Shown here piece by piece: positions 114 through 37,789 of a stretch of 64,000 nucleotides of DNA. The stretch is from Aurantiochytrium sp. KH105 (Eukaryota > Sar > Bigyra > Thraustochytrida > Thraustochytriidae): the NCBI GenBank assembly GCA_003116975.1, contig BGKB01000070.1, forward strand, positions 133,810 to 197,809, read 5' to 3'. Under the pieces are notes generated by a model, which did no database searches, was not told where the DNA came from, and was given only the letters and a program-made list of their open reading frames with translations. Numbering within the stretch: position 1 is the first letter of the stretch; the number at the start of each line of letters is the position of its first letter. Position numbers and translations under genes: made by a program.

Positions 114-280
114 AGACCCCGACCAAACCAGGATCAGCGGCGCCGACCCGGTCTCGAGCGGCGCGCGGCGCAGGCCGCACCGCGCTGCGACGCCGCCCGG
201 CGCCTCGCGAGGCGGGCAAGGCAGGCCAAGGCGAGGCGAGCAAGCAAGCGAGCGAGCAGCGGAAAACGGACGCTGCTGGC

Positions 281-301
281 GACGTGGTCGGCGACCACGT
301 C
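281..301. repeat. 21-base near-perfect palindrome
   Basis: GACGTGGTCG and its exact complement flank a single central G. A short-spaced dyad of this kind could bind a dimeric protein, but nothing else here supports that. Confidence 0.75.
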
Positions 302-662
302 AGTCGCGAGGCCGAGCAGAACGGCGGCCAAGACCCGGCACGAGAGCGCCGCGCGCGGGGGCACGGGCCGCGCAGACGCCGACGGAGACGACGACCCGCG
401 CGGCGCGGTCGACGGGACGCCGGCGGGCCGGCATCGCGGCGAGGCGCGCGGGCTCGACGCGGGAGCTCGGTTCGTCGACGGTGCCGAGGAAAGGCCGGCC
501 GGCCGGCCGGCCTCTCGCGCGGGCCCAAGCACGTCGGCCGGGCAGCCTCAGGCAGCAGACGGAGAAGATCCCTGAAAGACTCCCGAGGTCTCTTGCCGTC
601 GTGGACGCAGCAAGTTCTTGAAGTGTTCAGAAGCGTGTCTGCTCGCGGAGGAGCTTGTTCGC

Positions 663-663
<1 letters not shown>

Positions 664-693
<30 letters not shown>
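664..693 (+). repeat. (CAG)10 trinucleotide run
   Basis: Ten uninterrupted CAG triplets lie 70 bases before the ATG of the PrsW-like gene. The frame is open through the run and would encode polyglutamine, but no ATG lies upstream in that frame, so the run is most likely in the 5' leader unless an upstream exon joins it. Confidence 0.8.
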
Positions 694-694
<1 letters not shown>

Positions 695-762
695 CGCCAC
701 TGGCCAAGGTTCCACGCGCGGTTCCGCAAGGCGACGCCAGGTACAACCGAGGAAGAAAAGCC

Positions 763-2337
763 ATGCGCCGCCGCGATGACGATGGCGCCCTCGAGGGCGC
801 CTCGGAGCTCGGGTGGATGTTCGAGGCGAGCCCGGATGACTTGCAAGTTCCGGTGCCCGAAGTACCGACCGCGGGACGGTCGCAATGGCGCAAAGACTTT
901 GCGCGCAAGCTCGCGCAAAGCACGACTCTTGGGAACCTAAGAGGAGACGCTTGGACAGTCGCGAGAAAGAAAAAGCGCAAACGACAAAGAGTCCGCGGGT
1001 TTCGCGCTCTCGTCCCGGGCTATGACGTAGAAAATGCCTCGTTCATGTCCGTGGCGGCGTGGACTTCCCTCGTCGTTATCACGTGTATGCTCGCGCACGA
1101 GATTGTGACGAAATCCCTCTCGAACGGCATTGCGCTCTTTGTCTTGATGATCCCGCCTGTAACGGGACTGTACACGGCCGCGCAACGCTGGGAGCATAAA
1201 CGCGTCGAGGCTAGCGTGGTGAAGGAGCTTTTTCTCAAAGGTTTTGGGCCAGGATTTCTCCTCTTACTTTTTATTGAAATGTTCTGCGCCGTGACCATGT
1301 TGAGCTACTACTGCTACAAGGTGGACTGCTCCAACAACGATGGTCTTCGTGATATCTCCATGCTGCGTGACTTGCGACAGCTGGCCAGAATACTGTACCA
1401 GACCTCACCCATGCGGGGGCTCTTGGTGGCCGTCGTACTTTGCTTCTTCACCGCCGGCCTTTTGGAAGAGAGCACAAAGTTGTTTTTTGTCAGCAGCGCA
1501 ATCCGCTTCATGCCGCCGCCTCAGCATGCTCGGAGGCCGCCACCGCTCCGGTCGCCACCACCACTGGCCTCCCCTCCACTGCCGCCTGGCATGGCGCACA
1601 GACCTGCCTCGCTCATGGGAACCAACAGCAGCGTCTCTGCGGTAGTTCCTGATCCAGATCAACAGAGCCACTTTGGCAGTCCCACGACAGCTTCCTCGCC
1701 CACTGGTCTTTTTGGCGCTGCGGGCAATGGCGCCACGCCAATGGGTGCCAATCTTTCGAGTTTCGGCTATGGTGCAGACGTGGGTGTCACGGGTAGCGGA
1801 TTGATTCCAGACGCCGAGATGGCGGCTGCGTCGACTTCGAACGTCGAGGGCGGGCCCGCAGGGGTTGTGGATGTTGCATTATTGGAGCCTGAAGGCAAGC
1901 CGGATCCGGGCGTGACAAGTGGTCATGGGATCGTGGTGTACTTTCTCGCCTTCAGTGCTGGGCTGGCGACGAGCGAGAGCATGTTGTACTTAATTTGCCT
2001 TGCGAACACCCCGCCGGACGCCTTGCGCATGGCTCTGGCCCGCGTCTGTTTCTCTCTTCCCATGCACGCGGCATGTGGATGCTTTACGGGCCTTGGCCTG
2101 ATTGAGCGCTACTTCAAGTCTGGTCTGTCCTGGTTTCGGGTGCTTCTTCCGGCGGTCATTCTCCACGGTCTGTATGATTTCTTGCTGCTGCTCTTGCGTG
2201 TAACGCCGCTCATTGACTACCTCACCGAGGACCAGGTCGAGGCAGTCAAGTATGCTCTATCGCTCATCATTCTCATCGGAACCCTCAGTGCTTTGCGACG
2301 CAGGCTTCGCGTGTACTTTTTCTCCTCCGAACACTGA
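763..2337 (+). CDS. PrsW-like intramembrane protease / CAAX-protease-superfamily membrane protein
   Basis: A 524-residue multi-pass membrane protein. The four short motifs of PrsW-type glutamic intramembrane proteases are present in order: EESTK at about residues 235-239, a Ser-Glu at about 404-405 in a membrane helix, HAACG at about 435, and HGLYD at about 468-472. In bacteria PrsW cleaves anti-sigma factors within the membrane; the substrate here is unknown. A Pro/Ser/Ala-rich insert of roughly 140 residues (about 248-388) separates the first motif from the others and is probably a soluble loop. The N-terminus is basic and soluble. The start is the first ATG; the frame is open upstream through the CAG run but only with non-ATG codons. 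The family call rests on the motif set and hydrophobic segments; the activity is inferred. Confidence 0.75.
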   Translation: MRRRDDDGALEGASELGWMFEASPDDLQVPVPEVPTAGRSQWRKDFARKLAQSTTLGNLRGDAWTVARKKKRKRQRVRGFRALVPGYDVENASFMSVAAWTSLVVITCMLAHEIVTKSLSNGIALFVLMIPPVTGLYTAAQRWEHKRVEASVVKELFLKGFGPGFLLLLFIEMFCAVTMLSYYCYKVDCSNNDGLRDISMLRDLRQLARILYQTSPMRGLLVAVVLCFFTAGLLEESTKLFFVSSAIRFMPPPQHARRPPPLRSPPPLASPPLPPGMAHRPASLMGTNSSVSAVVPDPDQQSHFGSPTTASSPTGLFGAAGNGATPMGANLSSFGYGADVGVTGSGLIPDAEMAAASTSNVEGGPAGVVDVALLEPEGKPDPGVTSGHGIVVYFLAFSAGLATSESMLYLICLANTPPDALRMALARVCFSLPMHAACGCFTGLGLIERYFKSGLSWFRVLLPAVILHGLYDFLLLLLRVTPLIDYLTEDQVEAVKYALSLIILIGTLSALRRRLRVYFFSSEH

Positions 2338-9154: not shown

Positions 9155-12100
9155 ATGGAAAGATTGAGAAAAAGCATCTACGCCGTCTTCGGCAGAGGGC
9201 AAGGGAACGAAGGATCAAGCGTCGAGCGCGAGGTGAACGATGCCGCGCAGGCGGAGGCAGAGCTCCATACTGCCGCGTCTGAGCAGGCGGAGGCGCTTCT
9301 CGACCCCCCTGAGGTGCTCGCCGACGTCGCCGTCCTCGTCGTACACGATCCCGCCGACGAGTCCTTGGCCGAGCAGCTGGTTGACGCGATTCAGCCCCAC
9401 CTCAGCGTGCCCGTGCGCACCGCGAGCAAAGCCGCCGAGGCAGAAGAGGCGGCCAAGAATGCCTCGGTCGCTCTTCTGCTCGTGAGTATGGCACTCCAAG
9501 GCAACTGGATGCTCGTTGAGGCAGTGGCGAGGGTCCTCCCGAACGCGCTTGTACCCATCCTCATCGATAAAAAGATGGCCAATCCGAAGACTTGGGGTGG
9601 CGCAATCGCTTGGTATTTGCCCAATGATTTGTACGTCGAATTCTTCGAACCTGAAAAGGCCAACATTGCCTTCCTGGTTGGCCAAGTGAAAGCCGCTCGA
9701 ACGCGTGCTATAGAGGGAACAAGTGTCAAAAAGTTCCACGCATTTTTGTCCCACGAGTGGGGCAAAAAGGACAAATGGGGCAAAGAAGACAAATGGGTAC
9801 ACAAGATGGCCATCGAACTCGCGTTGCGACTCCGCGACCACGGCATCGAGACGTGGCTCGACGCGCAGCAAATGTCCGGTAGCACGGATCAAAGCATGGC
9901 TGATGGCATCGACTCGTCCACCGTATTTCTCGTCCTCGCGACCAAAGGATACATGGAAAAGATCAACACAGGTGATCGGTCAGACAACTGCCTCAAAGAG
10001 TTCCAATACGCTGGCAACAAGCGATTCGACCGCATCGTGGTCGCCGCGCTGGAAGAGGACATGACCAAGCACGCAACGGGGTGGACTGGGCGATTTCAGC
10101 TCGCGCTTACCAGGCAATCACCGGTGGATCTTTCCGATTGTTCGAATGGCAGTTTTCCGGACGAGGCGATCGAACGCCTTGCCAATGCCATTCAGACGCG
10201 CATCGATACGCCCGAGGCTTCATCGGACCTCACCCCTCTGATGCGCGACATTTATCCTCGCCTGAATCCGTGCAGCTCAGAGGCATGGGCCAAGGGCAAG
10301 GCGGAAAACTTTACCCTCGGCACGCGAAGCTGGATCATCGACGAGTTTTGCGACTGGTACAACAAGAAACAGAGTGCCGTCTTCATTCTTGTGGGCGACG
10401 GCGGCGTCGGCAAAAGCGTCATCATGGCCGAGCTTTGCCACCGCGGAGGCGCTCTGAAAACTGACGAAGATGTTGAAAAGAGCAAGGCTGATGAAAGCGC
10501 CGAGCCGCGCCGAAATTCGTCACGTGTACGTAGCCTGTGGCGTCGTAGCAAGAAAGAGCGCTCGCCTATATTTGTTGCGGCGTACCATTTCTTTCGGCAT
10601 GATCAAGTCACGGGCGCTGCGCCGAAAGAGGCTCTTGTGAGCATTGCATGGCAGCTCTGCCTGAGCGTGCCTGGCTTTGCCGATGTGCTCGACTCCGTGA
10701 GCTTTGGCGGTATTCGCGACAAGCCTCTGGCCGATGTATTTCAGACCATTCTCGTCGACCCTTTGAACAATCTCGGCTCAGACCAGACGCGACAAGTGGT
10801 CGTGCTCGACGCTCTCGACGAGTGCAGCAAAAGCGACGATGTCTTGACAAAGGTCATTCGTACGTGGAAGGATGTGATGCCCTCATGGCTCAGCTTGGTT
10901 GTGAGCACACGTCCCGAAGGCGAGATTCAACGCGGCATCACCAACAATAGCCTTGATTCGAAAGTGCTGGAGCTCAAGGACGAAGAGAACTTTCGCGACA
11001 TCGAAAAGCACATCGAGCATTTGCTGTGCGACATGAAAGATACCGTGGAGCAAAAAGATGTTGCTTCTTGCGCCAAGATTCTTTCCGAACGATCCGAAGG
11101 TCTCTTTCTCTGGGCGAGCTTCCTTCCCGAAACCCTGAACCGGATGCACGAGGAGAAACAAGGTGGACTGCTGACCTCGCAGGACATCTTGCACGAAGAC
11201 GCCATCCCCAATGGGCTTGGCGGCATGTTTCACGAATACTTTAAGCGCCTGCAAAAAAAAGTTGGCGGGGAGAAGACGTACAAGATGCTCCTGGCGCCAA
11301 TCGTAGCTGCTCGTGAACCGCTGAGTGTCGAGCAACTAAGCGCAGTTCTGCACTTGGAGCAAGATGATATGGATGATATTGTCGACGACGCGAGCAATCT
11401 CTTATATCGAGGCAGCGATGGTCGTGTGGCACTCATTCACAAGCGGATGGCAGACTGGCTTTCAGATATGAAGCAGAGCGGAAAAAAGCTCTGCGTGAAG
11501 AAAAAAGACGGGCATAAACAATTGGCCGACTACTGCAGCAACTCGCGGGACGACGTCTTTTCGCTCCGTCACGCCGTCTTTCACCTCGTCCAGAGCGGCG
11601 AGCACGCGAAGGCTTTCGAGCTCCTGAATGACTTTGCATGGGTACAGAGCGCCATCTCTGTCGGTGACGATGAAGCGCAAAGGCGCGCCACAATCGGAAA
11701 CCTCATTCGCGACTGCGCCGAACTCGGCATCTACTTTGCGCCCGAAAGTGATACGCCCCGCTTCCTGAGCAAAGCAGTGTATGCTCTCAGCTACGATCCC
11801 AACGAACTTGCGTCGCAAGTTCTGGCGCGTCTTGGTCACGACTCGAAAGATCCCTTGGCACGTAGTCTGCAAACACCTGATCAGCCATGGCTGGAGCCTA
11901 CTCGTGTCACCCTTGCTCATCCCCGCGACCCCTTGCTGCACGTGTTGAAGGGGCACTCTGATTCGGTCAGGAGCGTGGCGATACAGGGCGACACCATCGT
12001 CAGTGGGTCCGATGACAACACGGTGCGCATCTGGAACGCTACGTCGGGCGAGGAGCAGCACGTGTTGAAGGGGCACTCTGGTTGGGTCAGGAGCGTGGCG

Positions 12101-13504
12101 ATACAGGGCGACACCATCGTCAGTGGGTCAAGGGACAAGACGGTGCGCATCTGGAACGCTACGTCGGGCGAGGAGCAGCACGTGTTGAAGGGGCACTCGT
12201 CTCCGGTCAGGAGCGTGGCGATACAGGGCGACACCATCGTCAGTGGGTCCGGTGGGAGATGGTCCTATGACAACACGGTGCGCATCTGGAACGCTACGTC
12301 GGGCGAGGAGCAGCACGTGTTGAAGGGGCACTCTGGAACGGTCAGGAGCGTGGCGATACAGGGCGACACCATCGTCAGTGGGTCCTCGGACAACACGGTG
12401 CGCATCTGGAATGCTACGTCGGGCGAGGAGCAGCATGTATTGAAGGGGCACTCTGGAACGGTCTGGAGCGTGGCGATACAGGGCGACACCATCGTCAGTG
12501 CGTCCGGTGGGAGATGGTCCTATGACAACACGGTGCGCATCTGGAACGCTACGTCGGGCGAGGAGCAGCACGTGTTGAAGTCATATGGGGTCAGCAGCGT
12601 GGCGATACAGGGCGACACCATCGTCAGTGGGTCCTATGACGAGACGGTGCGCATCTGGAACGCTACGTCGGGCGAGGAGCAGCACGTGTTGAAGGGGCAC
12701 TCTGGTTGGGTCACAAGCGTGGCGATACAGGGCGACACCATCGTCAGTGGGTCCGGTGAGCAATATTCGAAGGACAAAACGGTGCGCATCTGGAACGCTA
12801 CGTCGGGCGAGGAGCAGCACGTGCTGAAGGGGCACTCTCGAGGGGTCACAAGCGTGGCGATACAGGGCGACACCATCGTCAGTGGGTCCTATAAGACGGT
12901 GCGCATCTGGAATGCTACATCGGGCGAGGAGCAGCACGTGTTGGAGGGGCACTCTGGTTGGGTCACAAGCGTGGCGATACAGGGCGACACCATCGTCAGT
13001 GGGTCTGATGACAACACGGTGCGCATCTGGAACGCTACGTCGGGCAAGGAGCACCGCGTGTTGAAGGGGCACTCTGGTACGGTCTACAGCGTGGCGATAC
13101 AGGGCGAAACCATCGTCAGTGGGTCCTTGGACAAGACGGTGCGCATCTGGAACGCTAATCCGGGCTTGGAGCAGCACGTGTTGAAGGGGCACTCTGGAAG
13201 GGTCAGGAGCGTGGCGATACAGGGCGACAGCATCGTATCACAATCACCCAATGAAACTCTTTACTGGAACGCTCGAACGGGCGAGGCACTCGACGCGGAT
13301 GAAGCGGAGGCATCGACCACACCTGGAAGAAACACGTTGGTGAACGTTGAGAACGGAACGCATGTAAAGCTTAGCGAAGGCGTAGGCTTTACGACGGATC
13401 ATGCAATCGATCGCACTGCTCGTCAAGGAAGTGTTTACGTTATTTGCGACATAAGCGGGAAGGTACACATCTTGCATGTCCAAGGAATCGAACCCAGGAC
13501 CTAA
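9155..13504 (+). CDS. TIR-TIR-NACHT-WD40 STAND receptor (NLR-like)
   Basis: A 1449-residue intracellular signalling ATPase in one exon, with ATG in a good context (CACCATGG). In order: a degenerate TIR-like alpha/beta domain (about 56-180); a fuller TIR domain (about 190-345) starting HAFLSHEW, with WLDAQQ and a CLKEF element whose Glu matches the catalytic Glu of TIR NADases; a NACHT NTPase with Walker A GDGGVGKS (414-421) and Walker B VVVLDALDEC (about 548-557); a helical segment; eleven WD40 repeats (about 930-1377); and a short tail. STAND proteins bind a ligand with the repeats, oligomerise through NACHT and trigger the N-terminal effector, so immune or self/non-self recognition is the likely role. 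The ligand and NADase activity are unproven. The repeats are nearly identical in DNA, showing recent amplification. Confidence 0.9.
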   Translation: MERLRKSIYAVFGRGQGNEGSSVEREVNDAAQAEAELHTAASEQAEALLDPPEVLADVAVLVVHDPADESLAEQLVDAIQPHLSVPVRTASKAAEAEEAAKNASVALLLVSMALQGNWMLVEAVARVLPNALVPILIDKKMANPKTWGGAIAWYLPNDLYVEFFEPEKANIAFLVGQVKAARTRAIEGTSVKKFHAFLSHEWGKKDKWGKEDKWVHKMAIELALRLRDHGIETWLDAQQMSGSTDQSMADGIDSSTVFLVLATKGYMEKINTGDRSDNCLKEFQYAGNKRFDRIVVAALEEDMTKHATGWTGRFQLALTRQSPVDLSDCSNGSFPDEAIERLANAIQTRIDTPEASSDLTPLMRDIYPRLNPCSSEAWAKGKAENFTLGTRSWIIDEFCDWYNKKQSAVFILVGDGGVGKSVIMAELCHRGGALKTDEDVEKSKADESAEPRRNSSRVRSLWRRSKKERSPIFVAAYHFFRHDQVTGAAPKEALVSIAWQLCLSVPGFADVLDSVSFGGIRDKPLADVFQTILVDPLNNLGSDQTRQVVVLDALDECSKSDDVLTKVIRTWKDVMPSWLSLVVSTRPEGEIQRGITNNSLDSKVLELKDEENFRDIEKHIEHLLCDMKDTVEQKDVASCAKILSERSEGLFLWASFLPETLNRMHEEKQGGLLTSQDILHEDAIPNGLGGMFHEYFKRLQKKVGGEKTYKMLLAPIVAAREPLSVEQLSAVLHLEQDDMDDIVDDASNLLYRGSDGRVALIHKRMADWLSDMKQSGKKLCVKKKDGHKQLADYCSNSRDDVFSLRHAVFHLVQSGEHAKAFELLNDFAWVQSAISVGDDEAQRRATIGNLIRDCAELGIYFAPESDTPRFLSKAVYALSYDPNELASQVLARLGHDSKDPLARSLQTPDQPWLEPTRVTLAHPRDPLLHVLKGHSDSVRSVAIQGDTIVSGSDDNTVRIWNATSGEEQHVLKGHSGWVRSVAIQGDTIVSGSRDKTVRIWNATSGEEQHVLKGHSSPVRSVAIQGDTIVSGSGGRWSYDNTVRIWNATSGEEQHVLKGHSGTVRSVAIQGDTIVSGSSDNTVRIWNATSGEEQHVLKGHSGTVWSVAIQGDTIVSASGGRWSYDNTVRIWNATSGEEQHVLKSYGVSSVAIQGDTIVSGSYDETVRIWNATSGEEQHVLKGHSGWVTSVAIQGDTIVSGSGEQYSKDKTVRIWNATSGEEQHVLKGHSRGVTSVAIQGDTIVSGSYKTVRIWNATSGEEQHVLEGHSGWVTSVAIQGDTIVSGSDDNTVRIWNATSGKEHRVLKGHSGTVYSVAIQGETIVSGSLDKTVRIWNANPGLEQHVLKGHSGRVRSVAIQGDSIVSQSPNETLYWNARTGEALDADEAEASTTPGRNTLVNVENGTHVKLSEGVGFTTDHAIDRTARQGSVYVICDISGKVHILHVQGIEPRT
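11941..13285 (+). repeat. Eleven near-identical WD40-coding repeats
   Basis: Units of about 120 bp begin at 11941, 12061, 12181, 12316, 12436, 12571, 12685, 12820, 12937, 13057 and 13177. The segments for SVAIQGDTIVSGS and TVRIWNATSGEEQHV are almost invariant, down to the codons. Differences cluster at two places in each unit: two or three residues after LKGHS, and the residues just before TVRIW. Units 3 and 5 share an in-frame 15-base insertion; unit 7 has a different insertion of the same size; units 6 and 8 are shortened. The array encodes the ligand-sensing half of the NLR-like protein. Confidence 0.95.
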
Positions 13505-13544: not shown

Positions 13545-13775
13545 GTGGGTGGTGCCGCCTGCGTGGGTGGGCGACCGACATTAACTGCTTGTGATCACTT
13601 ACTGCAACGCAGTAGTAATATCTCGCTTATAAACTTTTGCTTTACTTTTTTACCGTCTCGGTCTTTTTTATGGTTACGGGAGATGCGGCGGCGGCGTCAC
13701 AAATTGCAAGCAGAACGCACCTAATTGCAAGGAGATCGCACCTCAAGTACTGATGAGAAACTTTTCCAATTGATA

Positions 13776-13849
13776 CTGTCTCGAGGATGTTAGAGAGACT
13801 GACATCTCTTACCTGTCTCGAGGATGTTAGAGAGACTGACATCTCTTAC
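13776..13849. repeat. Two perfect 37-bp tandem copies
   Basis: The unit at 13776-13812 is repeated exactly at 13813-13849. Each copy contains interleaved dyads (GTCTC/GAGAC and GATGT/ACATC), so it can form small hairpins. Confidence 0.9.
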
Positions 13850-14960
13850 CTAGCCATGACAACAGTCGACAACAGTAGCAACTCAATCCTTCGTCTGCCC
13901 ACTTTTCGAGTGGTCATCGTCAAGTGTGCTTCGTCATCCAATCGGCGTTCCTTCCTTTTCTTCAAGAATGGGGTCGCAAAGCAGTTTTGTCTGGCATGAA
14001 AGAGCCGCGCAAGAACTTTCGCGGCATTATGACTCAAAATACAAATCTGGATACGACGCGCGGAGGCTAAATGGGGCCGACTGCGATTTGCTCTGAGCGC
14101 CTCGAATTTTCGGCTGAACTTGACCCATCTAGCCACGGCCAGCCTCAAGTTCCGTCCCTGTCGCGGTCCTGCCTCTCATTCCATCGCATCAACAGCAACT
14201 ACAACAAAAAGTGTCCTTGCCTTATCGTACCCGTAAGCGTGATATGGCTCAATGACACTTCGGCGCTGGCCTGAACAGTATCCCAGATTCGACACCGAGG
14301 CCGGCGCTCGTCTGCTACACACATTTTGCAACAAAATTACTTCGTCTTGGCGCTACTAATTTGTCTCAAATATGCCATAAAAGGCAGAGTAACATTGCAG
14401 GCGACAACAGGCTTGACGATGTGGCATTGGCCCAGCACGCACGCTTCAAAGGGCACAGTATGCATGTCCCAGCACATGACGGCGGTCCTCCTTGCAATGT
14501 TTTCTCGCTGTGCGTGGCCTTTCGCTCGCTACGCGTTTGACACCATAACTGTAAAGCGAGCGGTCGTGGCCGCATCGACTCATTGACCTGAACCCTGCTT
14601 GGCCGCCAGCATCGACTCAAACATCGACTTTCACAACATCTAAAGTTGCAGACAGCATGACTACGGGCTTGACGCGACGCGCACCCTAGGCGCGCTCGCA
14701 GCGTCCCGGACGCTGCGTTGGTCTTTCTTTCTTTCCTGCTTGCTTGCTGCTGTTCAATCCAAGACTCAAGTCGGTCATCTCGGAATGCGCATCTCCACCG
14801 ATACAGCCGCGTCCTGGCCTCCCCGCGCCTCGCCTCTCGTTGCTCGCGCCATCAGCACCCGCACGCATCTTCACTGATCTCCGAGCCTCCGCGCCGAGCA
14901 ATGTGATGAGCGCGCCCCTGCCCGAGTATGGGCACCGCAAGCTTGCGACACCGTCCACCA

Positions 14961-14993
14961 AGCACGCGCATCAGGGCTGCTGATGCGCGTGCT
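14961..14993. repeat. Perfect 14-bp hairpin with a 5-base loop
   Basis: The arms are 14961-14974 (AGCACGCGCATCAG) and 14980-14993, its exact complement, around a GGCTG loop. GC-rich and very stable on paper. No gene lies next to it. Confidence 0.85.
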
Positions 14994-15327
14994 GCCCACC
15001 CGCCTGCGCGGCGGCGTCTCCGCAAGACGATGATCATCTATCCGTTCGTCAAGCGACGTCAAGTCGAGTCCAGTGCTAGAAATGCACGTATTCGCACGTA
15101 TCCGACAGGCGTCCAGGGAAGCCTCCCTCTCGTCACTCTGCGCGGCGAGGCGGGGCGAGGCGTGCTGTGGCGCACGGCGGGCTGGCTGGTACAGACCGCG
15201 CGCCGGGCAATGCGACCCCGCTCATGTCTGAAGTGCGTTTTGGGCACTGATTTATTGCTCGGGTGACGAACTTCTTCCGTACGGTCGCGGCTCCATGTAC
15301 CAACCTTCTAAACATTCCAGCTGCCTT

Positions 15328-15662
15328 CTCGCCAGTTCACCAGTTTCAGATCAAGCTCGTCTGGCGATCATAATACAGACAACTTGCCACTTTGCCAGTT
15401 CACCCGTTTTCTAACTAGTACCTTGTTTTGCCCCCAAATAGTGTGTTGTTAGGGCCTTTGAACAGCATAGTATCGGTACTCCAATCGCAGTTTGTGTGAT
15501 CGTCATGATTTCGCACCTTTTTGATTGTCGGAAATGGAAATGGAAGTGTATATGCTCCTCGCCAGTTCGCCAGTTTTCTGACTGCCTTTGGTTTGCAAAA
15601 AAGTTGCCACCCCTTTTGGAGGCCAATGTACAGGCTGCTCGCCAGTTCGCCAGTTTTCTGAC
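15328..15662. repeat. Four copies of a GCCAGTTCGCCAGTTTTCTGA-like element
   Basis: Two identical 25-base copies are at 15558-15582 and 15638-15662 (80 bases apart). Two diverged copies are at 15328-15350 and 15394-15413. Each contains two GCCAGTT-like half-sites eight bases apart. Confidence 0.7.
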
Positions 15663-20731: not shown

Positions 20732-22702
20732 TTAGTAGTCTTCGTCAATGCCAGTGCCCTCATATCCGCAAAAGTACGGGCGGAGCGCATTCCACAGCGC
20801 ACCAGACCGAATGAGAGTAGCAGCAGCGTTGATATCAGGACTCATGATGCGATCACGGTCCCAGCCTGGAACATGCTCACGCACAAGAGCAAAGAGTGCT
20901 TCGAGAGGTTCGGTCGTGCGAAGAGGACGATGAAACTCGAGAGCCTGACAGCTCGAGAGCAGCTCGATCGCAAGAACATGCTCAACATTCTCGACGACTT
21001 GAAGAGCCTTGCGCGCCGCATAGCCGCCCATGGACACGTGATCCTCCTTTGCAGCAGACGTGGAAATGGAATCAACACTTGCCGGATGGGAAAGAGCCTT
21101 GTTCTCCGAGACCAAGGCTGCGGCTGTGCAATGTGCAATCATGAAGCCCGAGTTGAGCCCACCGTCCTGAACGAGAAAAGCCGGAAGACCGCTGAGCGCA
21201 GGGTTGACGAGACGCTCGATGCGACGCTCGCTGATCGATGCGAGCTCGCTCGTGCCAATCGCAAGGTAGTCAAGAACCTTGGCGGGGTATTCTCCATGAA
21301 AGTTGCCTCCGGAAATGACGAAACCCTCTTGTGTCCCGTGATTGGTGTAAAACGTATCGCTCTGTCGCTTGGCACCAAGACTGTCGCCAGTTGCTGCTGG
21401 TCCAGGACCGTTCAGGGCCGATGCACTCGTTCCGGTGCCATCGACAAGAGCACGGAGACGGCGGATTTCCGCCTTTGCCTCATCGAGCGTCTCTGGTTCG
21501 GTCGGGCCGTCAGTGTCAAAAGCAGAGAGATTCTGGCCTGACCCCGTCCCCGTCAGACGCCGCTCGTTGCGCTGAGGCGGCCAGACACGGATGGTGTTGC
21601 CTTGCGCATCGACAGTAGTGACATCGGGCTTGCCGGTGAATACCATGGGGTTGTCTGTCGAGGAATTGAGTTCAATGTCGAGCACGGACTCAACAAAAGA
21701 AATCGTGTCGGCAACAATGCCGTGCACTTGCGGGGTACACCGTAGCGAGTAGGCGTCTTGAACCTTGCCAGAATAGTTGTGGCTTGAAAAGAGCTCGGAG
21801 GGGGTTCCGGGGTGAAGCAGCGCACGGAGTCGAGCAGCGACGACGCCTTGGCCTCTGTGGGCGCGGCGCTCGTGCACGCGTGGGTGGAATGCGCTGACTG
21901 TACCCTTGAGGACCTCGAGCGTAAGAGCTGCGATGACGTCGGCACAGTTTTGGGCGTTGCGCGCGCGCACGACGGCCTCAGCGCCAAGCGAAGCAATCAT
22001 TTGGGTTCCATTGATGAGTGCAAGACCTTCCTTGGCTCCGAGCTTGATTGGCTCGAGTCCATGATCTGCGAGAACTTCTGCGGCGCTGCGCTGGATGGCG
22101 ACGACACCGCGATCCGGTCTCACATCTGAAGTGAGCGCCGTCTCCTCGGGTACGAGTGCGAGGTTATTGAACTTGGCGCTGGCATCGAGCTGGGTGGTGT
22201 CCCACATGTGGCCGTAGCCAAGAAGGCCGAGTGCGAGATGCGAGAGAGGCGCAAGATCGCCGGAGGCTCCGACAGTACCTTGCGCAGGGACGACCGAAAT
22301 GCAGCCTGCGTTGAATGCGGCAACCATTTGCATGAGCGTACGCTCAGACACGCCCGAGTTGCCGCGGCAGAGGACATTGATGCGCAGCGCGAGCAGCATA
22401 CGCGTGCGCTCATAGGGAAGGGGTTCGCCTACGCCTGCCGAGTGGGACTTGATGAGATTTTCTTGCAATTTTTCGAGCTGTCCTTCGTCGATGACAACGT
22501 CCGAGAAGAGCCCAAAGCCCGTATTGATGCCGTAGGCAACCTCTCGCTTGGCCAGGAGCTGGTCAACGACGAGTCGGGACTCGCGAACGCGGTCCAGCGC
22601 GGCGTCGGCGAGGACGATGCTCGATCCGTGTCGAGAGAGCGCGAGAAGTTGCTCACAGTCGAGCGAGTCGCCATCCAGCGTGATCTGTACCGGTCCCTTC
22701 AT
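20732..22702 (-). CDS. Histidine ammonia-lyase with a ~100-residue insertion
   Basis: A 656-residue enzyme that deaminates L-histidine to urocanate, the first step of histidine breakdown. The MIO prosthetic group forms from Ala-Ser-Gly at 146-148 in GTVGASGDLAP. The active-site loop YGINTGFG (about 58-65), NGTQ and the C-terminal GGLNSGFM and STSAAKEDHVSMG segments are all conserved. Between NPMVF (about 352-356) and ISGGNFHGEY (about 463) there is an extra stretch of roughly 100 residues, rich in Gly/Ser/Thr with one predicted helix (ETLDEAKAEIRRLRALV). Family members known to me have only a few residues here. The start is the first ATG; the frame is open further upstream without an ATG. Other enzymes of the pathway are not in the window. 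Confidence 0.95.
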   Translation of the reverse strand: MKGPVQITLDGDSLDCEQLLALSRHGSSIVLADAALDRVRESRLVVDQLLAKREVAYGINTGFGLFSDVVIDEGQLEKLQENLIKSHSAGVGEPLPYERTRMLLALRINVLCRGNSGVSERTLMQMVAAFNAGCISVVPAQGTVGASGDLAPLSHLALGLLGYGHMWDTTQLDASAKFNNLALVPEETALTSDVRPDRGVVAIQRSAAEVLADHGLEPIKLGAKEGLALINGTQMIASLGAEAVVRARNAQNCADVIAALTLEVLKGTVSAFHPRVHERRAHRGQGVVAARLRALLHPGTPSELFSSHNYSGKVQDAYSLRCTPQVHGIVADTISFVESVLDIELNSSTDNPMVFTGKPDVTTVDAQGNTIRVWPPQRNERRLTGTGSGQNLSAFDTDGPTEPETLDEAKAEIRRLRALVDGTGTSASALNGPGPAATGDSLGAKRQSDTFYTNHGTQEGFVISGGNFHGEYPAKVLDYLAIGTSELASISERRIERLVNPALSGLPAFLVQDGGLNSGFMIAHCTAAALVSENKALSHPASVDSISTSAAKEDHVSMGGYAARKALQVVENVEHVLAIELLSSCQALEFHRPLRTTEPLEALFALVREHVPGWDRDRIMSPDINAAATLIRSGALWNALRPYFCGYEGTGIDEDY

Positions 22703-22772
22703 GGTGGCTTCCTGTTCACTTGGGTTGGTGTACTTGACTCGAATATGCTTGTGTTGTTTGTCGAGCACGACG

Positions 22773-31663: not shown

Positions 31664-34600
31664 TCACTTAAAGACGTCCTTGGCCTCAAAGAGCGAATCG
31701 CCAAAGTTTTCGCGGTTCGGTAGCACCTTGTTCAGGTTGGCGTTGCCGGTGACGCCCATCCACTGCGCCACGGCGTTCCAGACCGAGTCCCAGCCTGTCG
31801 TGGGCATCATGCGGCCGCGACCCTGGTTAATAGGCTTCGCCGTGAGATCGTAAGGGTACTCGCCGAGGATCTTGCCGCTCTTAAGACCGCCGCCGGCCAT
31901 AAAGTAGTTGCCGCCCCAGCCGTGGTCCGTACCTGCACCGTTGCTCGTGAGCGTACGCCCGAACTCGGAGGTAAAGACAATCACCACCTGGTCCCACATG
32001 CCCTGCGCCTTCATCTCCTTGGCAAAGACCTCCACCGCCGTGTCAATATTCTCGACATGCTTCTCCATCCTCGTCTTGGCATTGCTATGTGTGTCAAAGC
32101 TGCCAATCTTGGTGTAAAAGGCGCCCCGGTTCACTCCAAGCTTCTTACCGGCCTTGATGAGGCGCGCAACCTGAGCAAACTGCTTTGAAAGCCCACTGTT
32201 CGGGAACGACTGCGACAAAGATCCGCCTCCCAAAGCCTCGTCGAGCTCCTCGGTACGGTTCATTACGTACTCAAAGGTCTCCGCCCACGCCTCCGCAAAA
32301 AGATTCGTGTTGGCACGATTAAGCTGCTGCAGCGCAGGGTGCAGACGCGATGACTTCGGGCTGCTCGAGGCTAGCTTGGAGACGCCGCCGCGCTCGTTGA
32401 TAATGTCAGGTCGAGGCGACACGCCGTACGTGCCCTCGAGAACGTTGACATTGCCGGAAATCGAGGCCGCGTTCGTGTTGTAGCCCGCCAAGGTGAGCTC
32501 GTCCATCATGCGCCCCAAAACGCCCGTACCGTCCGTGTACTGAGGCAAGCTCGTCTGCACCGAACGCTCCTGGGTGTTGTGCGAGTACAGACCACGCGGA
32601 CGCTTGCCGTTACCCTTGGTGTGGAGCGGCTCCACCAAAACACCCGTGTTGGCCAAAAAGTTTACATCGCCAGCATTGTATAGCGAGCGAAGAGCCGTCA
32701 TCGATGGGTGCAGACCGAACTTGCTGCACGCCTGGGGACTGTTGGCGCTAATCTCCAACAGCGACGACTTCGAGTGCGCAAGCAAGCTGCCGCGAATACG
32801 TGCATACTGATCATAGAGGTCCACGTTCGCGCAGCCCGAAAGAGGCACCAAAAAGTTGTAAGAGTCTGCACCACCGCTCAGATCCACAAAGACCACAGCC
32901 TTGTACGGCTTGGAACCATTGTCTCCAGAAGGAAGCTTGGTCACCACGCGCTGCTTCGAGGCGTACGTGGTGCGGCCCAGCGTGTGGAACTGTGGCGTGC
33001 CCAGAAAGAGCTGCTGCGCAAAACGAACACCGCGATCGAGACCATTCTTTCGCTGCACCGTGTACTCCTCCTCGATGATGGCGCGCTCTTGGGCGCCGAG
33101 GCGACCACCCGTGAGAAGATTGTCCATCTCGTCCACCACAGCTACAGCGCCCGTCTTGCTCTTGTCCGTCGGCGTGAACTCGAGCGTTGCATGCGCGGAG
33201 CACCCATTTGAGCTGTCAGGGGGCAAACCAATACCATCAGAACAATCGGTAAGACCGCGCGTCACCAGGGAATAGAGCGAGTTCAAGAACCGCATCACCA
33301 GCGGAGGACTCAATACCTGGGCTTGCGGTGCTACAAGCGACGCATTGCGAAGCACGCCGCTCGGCGAGTAGCCCGGCTGGTAAAACGAGAACACGGTTGG
33401 GGCGTCGTGGGGTTCCATGCCCGTCGCCAGCAAGAGCTCCTGCAGCACGACCAAGGCCCGCTTTGGCTTGATTTCCATCGACCGCATAAAGTGAATCACC
33501 TTGGTCAGCGACTCACGATGTTGACCGTATGTTGGGTCGGCGTCGATAACAGACGAGCGCGCCTCGCGGTCCAGCAAAACGGCCGCCACGGTCGCCTTCA
33601 TGTCGCCAAACTTGCCCGTGCCCACACCGTCGTACTTGCCGCTGCGAAAGGCGTCAGCGACGGCGCCAACGTACCGCGGCGACGGGTTCGAGGTCACCAA
33701 GTGCTGAATCAGCTGGCGGGCAATAAAAGGAGCAGCGTTCGGGTGCGTCACGTACTGCTCGATGACGGCCTCGGTCTCATGCATGGCGTCGCGAGTCTTG
33801 ATCTCCGCCACATCGTGAAAGGTCGGCGGGTTGCGAAAGCTCGCCGAGGTACCCGGAATGTGCACAATGGACTCCACGTTGACAAAGTACCGGGTCGTAC
33901 CGCTCACTACCTCGACCTCAAAAACCGTCTCGTCGCTAAACGCCTTGCCACTCTTCTTGTGCCATGCCGTGACACCGTTCTTCGTTTCACCCTCCTTGAA
34001 GTCGTCCGAAAGGAGTTGCGGGGCCCCACTGCCGATGCGAAGCTTTTCGATCACTTCCTCGCGCGTGGGCATTGACGAAAAGACTGCCGACGTCTTGACC
34101 TCGGTAGGGCACAGGCAGCCTGCTTCAGTCTCCTCCGAAGACGCTTCGACGCGAGTGCACGCCGAGGGACAGTTCGGGAAGAACGGCTTTGTCCAAACCG
34201 CGCGGAACCAGTTTTGCGTGTCAGGGTCCAGACGAGACTTGCGGTACTTTTTGATGTTGTTGTGAGCGGCATTGGCGGCAACATCGTGCACAATGGCAAT
34301 CTTGCCCGAGTCGCTAATCTTGACCTGAAGGGGGCACGCTGCGTCGGACCAAATGTAGTCCGCGACCGTGGGGCACTTGGTGCCGACCTTTTTGAAGTTG
34401 CACGTTTCCTGAGCAGGGGACCACTGCGTGGCGCAACGTTTCTTTGCCGTGGCATACGATACGCGTTCAGCACCGTACTCGCAGCGCTGCGTTGCAGCTG
34501 CCTTGCGATCGCCCACTTTGCAGCAGGCTGGTGCAGCTGCAATGCTCTTCGGGTCGGCGCACATGGCGTCCCGTAGGTTGTGCGCCGAGATACGCTTTCC

Positions 34601-37600
34601 ATCATTGAAAAAGCTCAATTGCGTGCACGCGGGCCGCACGTACTCGTAAAAGATGCCCTTGTGCTCTTCGGGGTAGATGCGGCACGCTTGCGTAGGCACA
34701 GTCGAGTTGACGCACATGTACTTTTTGTACGAGTCAGTACCGACCGAGCAGCCCGTCGGGCATGTCCACGTCTTCTTGTTGTACGTGTCCCGGCAGAGGT
34801 CGCCCTTGGTGGCCTTGTTGTGGTAGGTTTCAAGCTTCTGGCCATCGGGGCACCGTCTCGCGGACTGAGGCAGCATGACAATGCGCACATCGTCCACCTT
34901 GCATTCCTTACCCTTGCAAGCTAGAGCCTTATCAAGACGCACCTGCGGCTTGAAAGTACACTTGGCCAAGTCCGTGGTCTTGGTATTCGGTCCATTGCAC
35001 AAAACATCAAAAAGTTCCGATGTCTCCGGGTCGAGCTCGACGCGCAGAGCCTCCTCGCCAATCTCATTTTGCGTTGGTTCATCCTGAAGTTCGGGCAATG
35101 GGTAGGCACCAATGAAGCGGTACTCGGCGCCTTCACTCAGAAAAGCACGAGTCGGCAGGTTCGAGCAAAGCGGATACCCATCACCAACGTAGGCACCGTC
35201 AAGGCCAAGCTTAGGAAAAGGGTCACGGTACTCGCCGATTAGCTTCATGGGGTCAATGTAGTTTCCGTTGCCCTCGTTGAAGTTCTCCGTATTGCCACGT
35301 GCAACTTGAAGGTCGAAGCCAGTCCATGCACGCGCAAACTCCATGATCTCATCATTGTCATACGTGGGGACCGGTTCTCCATCACTGTCGAGTACAGGGG
35401 TTCCGTCTGGGTTGAGCTTGACGAGACCAATGCTGAACAGCTGCATCACTTCGCGTGCGTAGTTCTCATCAGGATACTCGTACCGGCGGTAACGCTCCAG
35501 CGTGTACGGGGTAGACTTGGATCCGACAAAGGAAAGCATCGTGGCCATAAGAGGACTATAGCTGATCTCGCGAAGCAAGTCGTGAAAGTTGCCAAATGCC
35601 TGGCGAACAAAGATGTCGTAAAAGGCGAGGTACATTTCCGTGGCCGCAGTGCCCATCGTCATGGTGGCCGACACAACATAAATTTGCGAGAGAGCCCAAG
35701 CCACACGCTGGCGGAGCTGATCCGGCGCTGTCAATGCGACGTTGGTCCAGACCGCGCTTTGCACGAGTTCCTTGGGAACTGGCTCGTCAAAGCGACCAGG
35801 CTCCGGGTCAGCGTCCTCCTCGTCGAGGATCTGCACCCCAAATCGCGAACCCTTGAGCGGGTTCGAGGCTACCTCGCCGGGCGAACCGCACGACATGGCG
35901 ATGGACTCGACCGAGTTCGGGTCGCCCACTGGCACGTCGGCGCCGAATTCCTTGCCGAGCTCTACACTTTGCACGGTCGACGGCAGCTCACGAAAGTTGA
36001 CCGTGTCGTCAAGGCGGCCAAGCAGCGAAAATCCCTTCGAGTACTTCTTCCAGCGGCTGTACGGGTGCCACGAGGGAAACGAAAGTTTGGTCTCACCGGA
36101 TTGAGCAATCTTCTTGATCGGGTTGGCGCGTCCATTCTCCAGTGCAATAGCGTTACCAGGATGCGCTCCCACGATGCTCCAGTACGAAAAGTCGTAGACG
36201 TTGTACAGCTCAGGATGCACATGCTCAAAGCAGTAGGTCTTGGACTTGTACTTGACATCAACCTTGGCTGCCTTGGCTAGGCCCTTGTTGCACTTGCCCC
36301 GAATACGCGGAATGTCGCGCACGTGCGGGTTGCCATCATTCTCGAAACTGGCCTCGAGCAGAGGAATGAGGGACTCCTTGGTCCTGTTGTCCAGGTAGGT
36401 TGCGGCGGCTCCACAGCTTCCCTTGGAAAAAATCCAGCGCGAGATCGCCGAGCAGGGCGTCTTGGCTGCGTCCACGGTCAAGCCGTCAACGTAGTAGACA
36501 TACTTGTTGCCCAGCCTGTAGAACTTGCGTAGAGCTTCCTCGTTAAGTTCAAAGTAGGCGTCCGTGAAACGTGTCGGCACGCAGGCGCTCGAGCTCGTAA
36601 TACACGAGTCGACGTTCAAGAAGGTGCGTGGCACGTTGGGGCACGTGGACTCGAGCAGCATGCCGCTTGCAGGGGCTTCGATGGGGTTGTCCACAGTCAC
36701 GAGCCGAGCGGTGTGCTTGTAGACGTCGCCGCTCGTGGTGATGGCGAAGACAGTGCCGCCAACGGGGAGTGAGCAGTCCGACGGGACATCTGTGAGAATC
36801 TTGACGTCGCTAACGCTCGGCGTGAGGGAGCTCATGGCGTTGTCGCTCACATGCACGATGCGAAAAGGCTCGGGTTCTTCGAGGAACTTGATGATCGGGT
36901 TGTTAAGTTTCTCGTTGCAGTTGACGCCGAACTTGATGACTCCGCCCTCAGAGTCACCGACGGAGCAAATGGGCCAAGAGGCCACATCGGTGCCTGCCTT
37001 CCAGGTGGCAAGCTTGGTCTCGTGGTGCCGCACAATGTCGTCGACGCGGAGCTCGTAAAAGCCATCGCGATCGACCTTTGTGAGGATCTTGCCCACGTCT
37101 TCGGAGGATAGAGCGTACTTGTGCCAGCGCGACATGGCCTCGCAAGGCTGACGGGGACGGCCCACGTTCCCTGCAATGGAAATGGGCTGGTTCATGCGCT
37201 CGCGGTAGTATGCGCGATGCAGCGTGGGCTCGAGTGCGGCCTGGTCCTCGATCCATGTTTTGAAGCGCGAGCCGGAGCTGCCCATGGCATTGAGCTCGGA
37301 GCGCGTCGGGCCAAAGGTGGACTGCAGCAAGAAGCGCGCATTCTCTTTGACACTCGAGGAGTCTCCGGTCACCTGAAAGGAGAGGAGTGCGACGGAGCCA
37401 AGCTGTTTCGCTTGGTCCGAGACGGAAACTGTGCACTTGTTGGACGAGCAGGACACCTCCTTAGCTTGGAGGACTTCCCAGTCGTTGCCGGCGTAAGAGC
37501 GCGCCTGGGGCGCCCCCTTTTCGTCAATGAGAAGGAGCACCTCTTGATTCCCTGCGCGCGCCAAGTTTACATCACGGTTCTTCTTTACATTGTACTTGGT

Positions 37601-37789
37601 TGCTCCCTCGTCTGCGAAGAGCCCGATGAGCTTCCGCTCGGTGTTGTCTGCTGCCGACTCTGCGTCTGCGAGCCCGCCTCGGATGCCCGCGTGGTGGAGC
37701 GCGTTTTCTGCGTCGCCGTTGGCTCCACAGAGGATGGCCAAGACGCTGGCGAGCACGAGCCAGGCCGCGAGCCCTCTTCGTGCCGCCAT
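31664..37789 (-). CDS. Secreted DUF1800-DUF1501 fusion protein
   Basis: A 2041-residue protein with a signal peptide (about 1-26, LAAWLVLASVLAILCGANG). The DUF1800 region starts at about 155 (ARFLLQSTFGPT), continues with QLRQRVAWALSQI and YPDENYAREVMQLFSIG, and resumes at about 1240 to 1460 with HPNAAPFIARQLIQHLV. It is interrupted at about 925-1235 by a Cys-rich segment with repeated Cys pairs. The C-terminal DUF1501 region (about 1616-2041) begins VVFVDLSGGADSYNFLVP and includes FTSEFGRTL and GTDHGWGG. DUF1501 belongs to the sulfatase/alkaline-phosphatase-like group. In many bacteria the two families are adjacent genes, so the fusion supports joint action outside the cell. The biochemical function of the pair is not known to me. 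One long exon; the start is the first ATG after stops. Confidence 0.88.
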   Translation of the reverse strand: MAARRGLAAWLVLASVLAILCGANGDAENALHHAGIRGGLADAESAADNTERKLIGLFADEGATKYNVKKNRDVNLARAGNQEVLLLIDEKGAPQARSYAGNDWEVLQAKEVSCSSNKCTVSVSDQAKQLGSVALLSFQVTGDSSSVKENARFLLQSTFGPTRSELNAMGSSGSRFKTWIEDQAALEPTLHRAYYRERMNQPISIAGNVGRPRQPCEAMSRWHKYALSSEDVGKILTKVDRDGFYELRVDDIVRHHETKLATWKAGTDVASWPICSVGDSEGGVIKFGVNCNEKLNNPIIKFLEEPEPFRIVHVSDNAMSSLTPSVSDVKILTDVPSDCSLPVGGTVFAITTSGDVYKHTARLVTVDNPIEAPASGMLLESTCPNVPRTFLNVDSCITSSSACVPTRFTDAYFELNEEALRKFYRLGNKYVYYVDGLTVDAAKTPCSAISRWIFSKGSCGAAATYLDNRTKESLIPLLEASFENDGNPHVRDIPRIRGKCNKGLAKAAKVDVKYKSKTYCFEHVHPELYNVYDFSYWSIVGAHPGNAIALENGRANPIKKIAQSGETKLSFPSWHPYSRWKKYSKGFSLLGRLDDTVNFRELPSTVQSVELGKEFGADVPVGDPNSVESIAMSCGSPGEVASNPLKGSRFGVQILDEEDADPEPGRFDEPVPKELVQSAVWTNVALTAPDQLRQRVAWALSQIYVVSATMTMGTAATEMYLAFYDIFVRQAFGNFHDLLREISYSPLMATMLSFVGSKSTPYTLERYRRYEYPDENYAREVMQLFSIGLVKLNPDGTPVLDSDGEPVPTYDNDEIMEFARAWTGFDLQVARGNTENFNEGNGNYIDPMKLIGEYRDPFPKLGLDGAYVGDGYPLCSNLPTRAFLSEGAEYRFIGAYPLPELQDEPTQNEIGEEALRVELDPETSELFDVLCNGPNTKTTDLAKCTFKPQVRLDKALACKGKECKVDDVRIVMLPQSARRCPDGQKLETYHNKATKGDLCRDTYNKKTWTCPTGCSVGTDSYKKYMCVNSTVPTQACRIYPEEHKGIFYEYVRPACTQLSFFNDGKRISAHNLRDAMCADPKSIAAAPACCKVGDRKAAATQRCEYGAERVSYATAKKRCATQWSPAQETCNFKKVGTKCPTVADYIWSDAACPLQVKISDSGKIAIVHDVAANAAHNNIKKYRKSRLDPDTQNWFRAVWTKPFFPNCPSACTRVEASSEETEAGCLCPTEVKTSAVFSSMPTREEVIEKLRIGSGAPQLLSDDFKEGETKNGVTAWHKKSGKAFSDETVFEVEVVSGTTRYFVNVESIVHIPGTSASFRNPPTFHDVAEIKTRDAMHETEAVIEQYVTHPNAAPFIARQLIQHLVTSNPSPRYVGAVADAFRSGKYDGVGTGKFGDMKATVAAVLLDREARSSVIDADPTYGQHRESLTKVIHFMRSMEIKPKRALVVLQELLLATGMEPHDAPTVFSFYQPGYSPSGVLRNASLVAPQAQVLSPPLVMRFLNSLYSLVTRGLTDCSDGIGLPPDSSNGCSAHATLEFTPTDKSKTGAVAVVDEMDNLLTGGRLGAQERAIIEEEYTVQRKNGLDRGVRFAQQLFLGTPQFHTLGRTTYASKQRVVTKLPSGDNGSKPYKAVVFVDLSGGADSYNFLVPLSGCANVDLYDQYARIRGSLLAHSKSSLLEISANSPQACSKFGLHPSMTALRSLYNAGDVNFLANTGVLVEPLHTKGNGKRPRGLYSHNTQERSVQTSLPQYTDGTGVLGRMMDELTLAGYNTNAASISGNVNVLEGTYGVSPRPDIINERGGVSKLASSSPKSSRLHPALQQLNRANTNLFAEAWAETFEYVMNRTEELDEALGGGSLSQSFPNSGLSKQFAQVARLIKAGKKLGVNRGAFYTKIGSFDTHSNAKTRMEKHVENIDTAVEVFAKEMKAQGMWDQVVIVFTSEFGRTLTSNGAGTDHGWGGNYFMAGGGLKSGKILGEYPYDLTAKPINQGRGRMMPTTGWDSVWNAVAQWMGVTGNANLNKVLPNRENFGDSLFEAKDVFK

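Follow-up and report, generated by a model that had tools for sequence, protein, structure and literature searches.

A large family of TIR-NLR receptors is present in the genome of the thraustochytrid Aurantiochytrium sp. KH105, and we propose, with a probability of roughly 0.78, that this family is diversifying and works in the manner of the fungal HNWD receptors, with a TIR domain taking the place of HET. The reference gene lies in a 64,000-nucleotide stretch of contig BGKB01000070.1 (the window). Its architecture, the size of its family, the conservation of its putative catalytic motifs and the hypervariability of five codons per repeat are established at the level of sequence. These observations support the interpretation of an earlier note on this DNA, that the gene encodes a candidate receptor of the recognition type. 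Among NLRs whose repeats diversify through exchange and through selection on a few surface residues, the fungal HNWD genes are a textbook case.

Domain architecture of the receptor

The receptor ORF extends over positions 9155..13504 on the forward strand; it is a single frame with an ATG start, open throughout and encoding 1449 amino acids, in keeping with the earlier note, which placed the repeats in one exon. A Pfam scan of the whole protein (E up to 1, best 25 of 39 matching families considered) identified a NACHT-type ATPase of the NPHP3_N family at residues 389-585 (10319..10909, +; E 1.7e-17), followed by a winged-helix (TANC1-like) domain at residues 711-801 (11285..11557, +). The Walker A motif GDGGVGKS (residues 414-421; 10394..10417, +) retains K420 and S421 in 32/32 compared copies, as does the Walker B motif LDALDE (residues 551-556; 10805..10822, +) all six of its residues, in agreement with the earlier reading of an intact NACHT ATPase. 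Together with this P-loop NTPase, Pfam and repeat anchoring placed an effector at the N terminus and a repeat sensor at the C terminus, which is the order of a STAND/NACHT NLR, and by its architecture the gene is a STAND/NLR receptor. When residues 1-932 were searched alone, no PDB chain matched at E up to 1. The conserved C-terminal tail (GFTTDH...VHILH; 13271..13504, +), modelled with low confidence, is possibly a degenerate last blade; it is recognisable in nearly all of the 32 frames and not in one with a gap in its array (L023).

The effector part contains one clear TIR domain, TIR2 (residues about 190-346; 9722..10192, +), which matches Pfam TIR_2 over residues 217-327 with an E-value of 1.3e-11, above the cut-off. 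A profile built from 21 family cores and searched against the PDB gave four matches, all in the TIR2 region: SEFIR 5y8f (E 5.9e-4) and 5y8e (7e-4), the CRISPR-associated TIR Cat1 (0.0074) and the TIR protein 7uxr (0.023). The apparent catalytic Glu noted previously in the sequence CLKEF is Glu282 (NCLKEF; codon 9998..10000, +), which from the familiar TIR motif we take to belong to the catalytic site. Among the 32 copies the position is Glu in 30, Asp in 1 and a gap in 1, and the residue is thus kept in 30/31 comparable copies.

Upstream of TIR2, a motif and a weakly predicted beta-alpha pattern are what suggests that an N-terminal module, TIR1 (residues about 52-178; 9308..9688, +), is TIR-like. 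The motif, W118-x3-E122, occurs in most of the 31 copies that have a residue there, 20 of them having W118 and 26 having E122; across all 32, position 122 is Glu in 26, Lys in 5 and a gap in 1. With residues 1-392 scanned alone at E up to 0.1, TIR1 had no Pfam match, TIR_2 being the only match there, and the TIR1 and TIR2 profiles displayed no similarity to each other (hhalign probability 0.3 and 0.2). The single-sequence structure model of TIR1 and TIR2 together had a pLDDT of 44, too low to verify a TIR fold, and the fold search made with it was uninformative. Of the two TIR domains originally described, TIR2 is upheld by its Pfam match, and TIR1 is a candidate TIR-like module. The initial part of TIR1 is also found, at 62% identity, fused to a long SAM-domain, RS-rich protein (L043:110-4117), and a similar match is located at C16:366836.

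The C terminus is occupied by an array of near-identical WD40 repeats (11939..13270, +), whose hypervariable unit positions are 8, 9, 11, 25 and 27. The Pfam WD40 family covers it in 10 stretches (E 8e-78), eleven units were anchored by script, and TRF scored the array (11938-13236 and sub-ranges) with 741, 1214 and 1817 (threshold 50), which bears out the count of eleven almost identical repeats given before. Repeats 3, 5, 7 and others have a b-c loop five residues longer (e.g. GGRWSYDN), and such long loops are also seen in several paralogues. The best of five models of the WD40 region (522 residues) reached a pLDDT of 82.7, the other four 34-46, and a pTM of 0.51. In this best model the variable residues are located around the d-a loop and the b-c turn, and Foldseek matched it best to beta-propeller proteins including Apaf-1, with modest TM-scores.

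A large receptor family in the genome

The assembly holding the window comprises 76.0 Mb in 367 contigs. Using residues 392-715 as a NACHT query, with 81/81 candidates scored, we obtained 78 matches, and nearby rows were merged into places. At 59 places the identity to the window gene is 63-100%, one of them (C219) having a stop inside the matched stretch; 11 further places show 28-38% identity, the two at 38% being C20 and C121. The paralogues anticipated for this receptor are hence found in its own assembly, and the gene belongs to a large family of TIR-NLR receptors. A TIR1-TIR2 query gave at least 109 matches (105/140 candidates scored). The TIR repertoire of this genome is very large and spread over more than one family (e.g. 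L041, L042); PF13676 (TIR_2) gave at least 150 matches, all over cut-off (150/258 candidates scored).

For detailed comparison we used 32 of the 59 places, the window copy included. All 32 have a long open frame of at least 1107 amino acids; L013 is interrupted upstream of the NACHT domain, and an N gap falls within the array of L023. A homologue of 37% identity (L044) has the same core order and only two stretches that score as WD40, which shows that a near-identical array is not shared by every homologue. Two further NACHT matches with long frames, C129:202931-203917 and C242:422566-423495, have no TIR match among the 105/140 TIR candidates scored and possibly carry other effector domains.

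Hypervariable codons in the WD40 repeats

Variability was counted in 268 standard units (those with a three-residue loop) from the 32 genes. Units whose loop is longer (e.g. GGRWSYDN) or whose tail is poor were left out, so that the window gene is represented by 6 of its 11 units. The entropies of unit positions 8, 9, 11, 25 and 27 are 2.87, 3.74, 3.33, 3.46 and 2.52 bits; no other position exceeds 1.76 bits, and the other loop residues are conserved. As many as 241 distinct five-residue types occur among the 268 units. Over 1151 within-array pairs, pN and pS are 0.571 and 0.513 at the variable codons and 0.103 and 0.294 at the remaining (frame) codons. Variable-codon pN is 1.95 times frame pS (1.56-2.77 when genes are bootstrapped), whereas the variable codons taken by themselves have a local pN/pS of just 1.11 (1.01-1.23), because their pS is itself high. 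In the window gene, with its 6 standard units, variable-codon pN is 0.538 against a frame pS of 0.072, and frame pN (0.089) exceeds frame pS. Between genes, variable-codon pN/pS is 0.27 for L017/L019, 0.43 for L028/L032, 0.90 for L020/L021, 1.05 for L024/L026, 1.09 for L036/L038, 1.24 for L022/L030 and 1.43 for the window gene and L011 (16 codons), and 0.80 for three collinear gene pairs pooled. Positive selection on the variable codons is supported by these comparisons, albeit not cleanly.

The loops are in general the least constrained parts of propellers, and it could be argued that this is an ordinary WD40 family, in which near-neutral, relaxed loop codons contrast with strong constraint or homogenisation elsewhere. 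The near-neutral local ratio of 1.11 and the values below 1 in 3/7 gene pairs are in line with such an argument. Purely relaxed codons, however, should stay at or below the level of neutral frame sites as long as their own mutation rate and age are no different, and overall the pN of the variable codons is roughly double frame pS, with a far larger excess in the window gene; moreover, the other loop residues of the unit are conserved. We therefore regard simple relaxation as very improbable.

The borders of the variable codons are sharp in nine arrays (64 units) that were chosen as the most homogeneous. There, 5.5% of comparisons at frame fourfold sites show a difference, as against 48-52% at each base of the variable codons. 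Codon 10 (Val10) is GTC in 58/64 units and codon 26 (Asp26) is GAC in 62/64, both being flanked by variable codons which differ about half the time. Fourfold third bases inside the variable codons differ in 24.8% of comparisons (0.248, n 113), compared with 0.055 in the frame. Such sharp borders and the diversity of third bases would be expected if the variable codons were made by a dedicated, codon-focused mechanism instead of by point mutation, repeat exchange and selection. Against this, the nine arrays were selected for their homogeneity, and over all 32 genes the pS of codon 26 is 0.646, so that the border is not sharp; the third bases also show position-specific preferences, codon 25 being mostly GAT/TAT and codon 11 mostly AAC/TAC in the same nine arrays, which fits stepwise substitution. 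Adenine-specific mutagenesis of the retroelement type is not favoured, as all three codon bases vary here. A codon-focused mechanism seems to us improbable. We consider it equally improbable that this protist possesses dozens of actively diversifying TIR-NLRs in which such a process changes five codons per blade on a frozen frame, in the manner of antigen receptors; if true, a system resembling antigen receptors would exist beyond the animals, plants and fungi.

Turnover of the arrays

Overall, frame pS is the same within and between arrays (0.294), and 25/32 arrays are more alike inside than they are to other arrays. One 99-nt frame is identical, base for base, in 29 units of 14 genes, and these units carry 25 five-residue types; 84 units of 22 genes, at most 2 bases away from this common frame, carry 79 codon sets. 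For 9.2% of units the nearest frame neighbour is another unit of that gene, compared with a mean of 3.3% and a maximum of 6.1% after shuffling, and one full WD40 unit is identical in L021 and L027. The same-gene neighbours, the identical unit and the frames common to 14 genes would fit either exchange or a recent common origin of the arrays. Core identity reaches at least 0.85 in 34/496 gene pairs, 32 of which have no five-residue type in common, the exceptions being L017/L019 (10 types) and L022/L030 (1 type); below 0.85, a type is shared by 5/462 pairs. The core and the putative specificity residues are thus demonstrably decoupled, at least in sequence. As L017 and L019 share 10 types, not every array turns over fast.

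Haplotypes and reliability of the assembly

Two haplotypes seem to be represented in the assembly. A ribonucleotide reductase gene that adjoins the receptor has a 97% copy on C17, and a neighbouring kinesin gene has a 98% copy on C274. On C17, a receptor copy (L011) adjoins the reductase copy at nearly equal spacing, about 2.2 kb, and its 5' flank is 91% identical to that of the window gene, of which it is probably the other allele. The comparison of repeat number and variable sites that had been suggested between strains was made here within one assembly, where this probable haplotype partner does differ, having 5 anchored units compared with 11 in the window gene and no five-residue type in common with it. 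The kinesin copy is not on the contig of L011, so a rearrangement or misjoin is present, and the contigs around the receptor are rearranged or misjoined. Beside the kinesin copy, C274 contains an 86% copy of window 123-778 (L045:773-1431) in changed order.

The genes are intron-poor, with long single frames, and the GC content is 50-65%. PfaA-type synthases mark thraustochytrids among eukaryotes, and parts of such a PUFA synthase are present in pairs in the assembly, the ketosynthase part scoring 930 bits. There was no match at the whole-protein cut-off, probably since the ACP tandem breaks contigs; weaker matches, below the cut-off, were also obtained in 11/14 control genomes. Taken with the scarcity of introns and the GC content, the synthase parts are indicative of a thraustochytrid host. 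Elsewhere in the window, a 2041-residue frame (31664-37789, -) joins DUF1800 and DUF1501, both of unknown function, and an aromatic amino acid lyase (E 9.5e-173) is encoded at 20732-22768 (-).

The 3' flank of the receptor (13600..15400, +) is duplicated together with many receptor copies, with at least 67 matches (40/61 candidates scored), many beside receptor genes. Some copies of this flank are at contig ends or have no listed receptor match nearby. Of the fetched receptor copies, 19/32 lie at most 20 kb from a contig end, where 9.2 would be expected for the contigs concerned; among the copies on contigs of 250 kb or more, 10/21 do so, with 1.7 expected. We do not claim a subtelomeric location, as the five contig ends checked had no TTAGGG-type repeats and the arrays seem to break contigs.

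The assembly breaks at tandem repeats, as indicated by the N gap in the L023 array and by contigs ending in the tandem ACP region of the PUFA synthase. Repeat number and order may therefore be wrong, and the array lengths are provisional. For Podospora arrays, the accessible parts of the literature likewise describe short-read assemblies as unreliable, since they omit or create repeats (PMC1805685, PMC2873952, PMC12222747). It could be suspected from these breaks, and from the synteny around the window gene, which differs between contigs, that most of the diversity among arrays is an artefact of an assembly that contains two haplotypes and is broken at repeats. Units can be shuffled by misassembly, yet 241 types restricted to five codons could hardly arise in that way, and we give this suspicion very little credence.

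Comparison with known systems

The likeness to the HNWD genes of Podospora (het-d, het-e, het-r) extends to individual residues. In the parts of the published work accessible to us, codons 7, 9, 25 and 27 of HET-D/E/R are reported to be under positive selection, the variable residues being placed at the d-a loop and the b-c turn (Paoletti et al. 2007), and a 2025 paper lists positions 10, 11, 12, 14, 30, 32 and 39 as having high dN/dS. With the published Podospora unit aligned to that of the family, family positions 9, 11, 25 and 27 coincide one for one with codons 7, 9, 25 and 27, and the seven listed positions include all five of the family (8, 9, 11, 25 and 27). This coincidence of variable sites sustains the view, put forward in the earlier note, that the gene is laid out like a fungal self/non-self recognition gene. 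Both systems combine a NACHT domain with a near-identical WD40 array, both have variable codons (7, 9, 25 and 27) around conserved codons 8 and 26, and in both specificity appears decoupled from the core. Reactive HNWD alleles have 10-12 repeats (PMC1805685, PMC2873952, PMC12222747, as far as accessible), compared with 11 in the window gene.

There are also differences. The family N terminus consists of a TIR-like module followed by TIR_2, and no HET domain was found in residues 1-392 (Pfam, E up to 0.1); the family therefore appears to work like HNWD but is not classed as a member of it. The WD40 unit has 40 residues compared with 42, position 8 is one more strongly variable position, and the host is a thraustochytrid protist instead of a fungus. 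The HNWD family of Podospora is small, compared with 59 places here. HET itself is described as remotely related to TIR in the accessible text of one study (PMC9815663), and HET homologues are reported in stramenopiles in that of another (PMC4986451).

Since the layout of variable sites matches that of known allorecognition genes, and since the array of L011 differs from that of the window gene, the receptors could serve mainly in allorecognition between strains, as in heterokaryon incompatibility, and not in immunity against pathogens. We regard this as possible, though doubtful; it would be a version of the HNWD-like explanation with another cue.

Other receptors share parts of this design. 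TIR domains occur in NLRs of plants, bacteria and Chytridiomycota, and TIR/SEFIR-like N termini in fungal NLRs (PMC9815663). The latter resemble the present family in carrying a TIR-clan effector on an NLR, whereas a large WD40 family with five hypervariable codons is not described in the parts of that article accessible to us. The metazoan DED-TRADD-N proteins, of which 13-129 per species are reported in the accessible text, are likewise numerous WD40-propeller proteins varying in repeat number, and recombination has been proposed for their diversification; they differ in their DED-TRADD-N effector and belong to another lineage (PMC8195603). Likeness to bacterial proteins is limited to weak profile matches, to the Avs-type STAND protein Avs1b (E 3.9e-7), to bSEFIR (E 5.2e-5) and to the Cat1 TIR (0.0074). 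Searches with two short peptides confirmed no relatives among 35 pattern matches in prokaryote genomes and none among 73 in viral contigs. Within the open-licence literature, as far as accessible, we found no report of this TIR-NACHT-WD40 family in this lineage.

Proposed mechanism and implications

We propose a series of steps for the HNWD-like, TIR-linked receptors. The WD40 array would fold into beta-propellers, and the five variable residues of each blade would line the top face, the presumed binding face, and set specificity. Repeats would be gained by duplication and lost again, and would probably also be exchanged, both inside one member of the family and among members, a process that may keep the frame homogeneous, and selection would keep the five face residues diverse. 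Binding of a ligand, the cue for which may be a pathogen or a non-self conspecific, would cause the NACHT ATPase to oligomerise and bring the TIR2 domains together. TIR2 may then cleave NAD+, and the cell would be killed or a signal given. The domain architecture and the conserved residues are compatible with such a ligand-triggered oligomerisation and with NAD+ cleavage as the putative output.

The presence of the same hypervariable residues in a larger, TIR-linked family of a protist suggests that this solution is either convergent or far older than fungi. It also provides a system in which protist recognition of viruses or of other strains can be studied.
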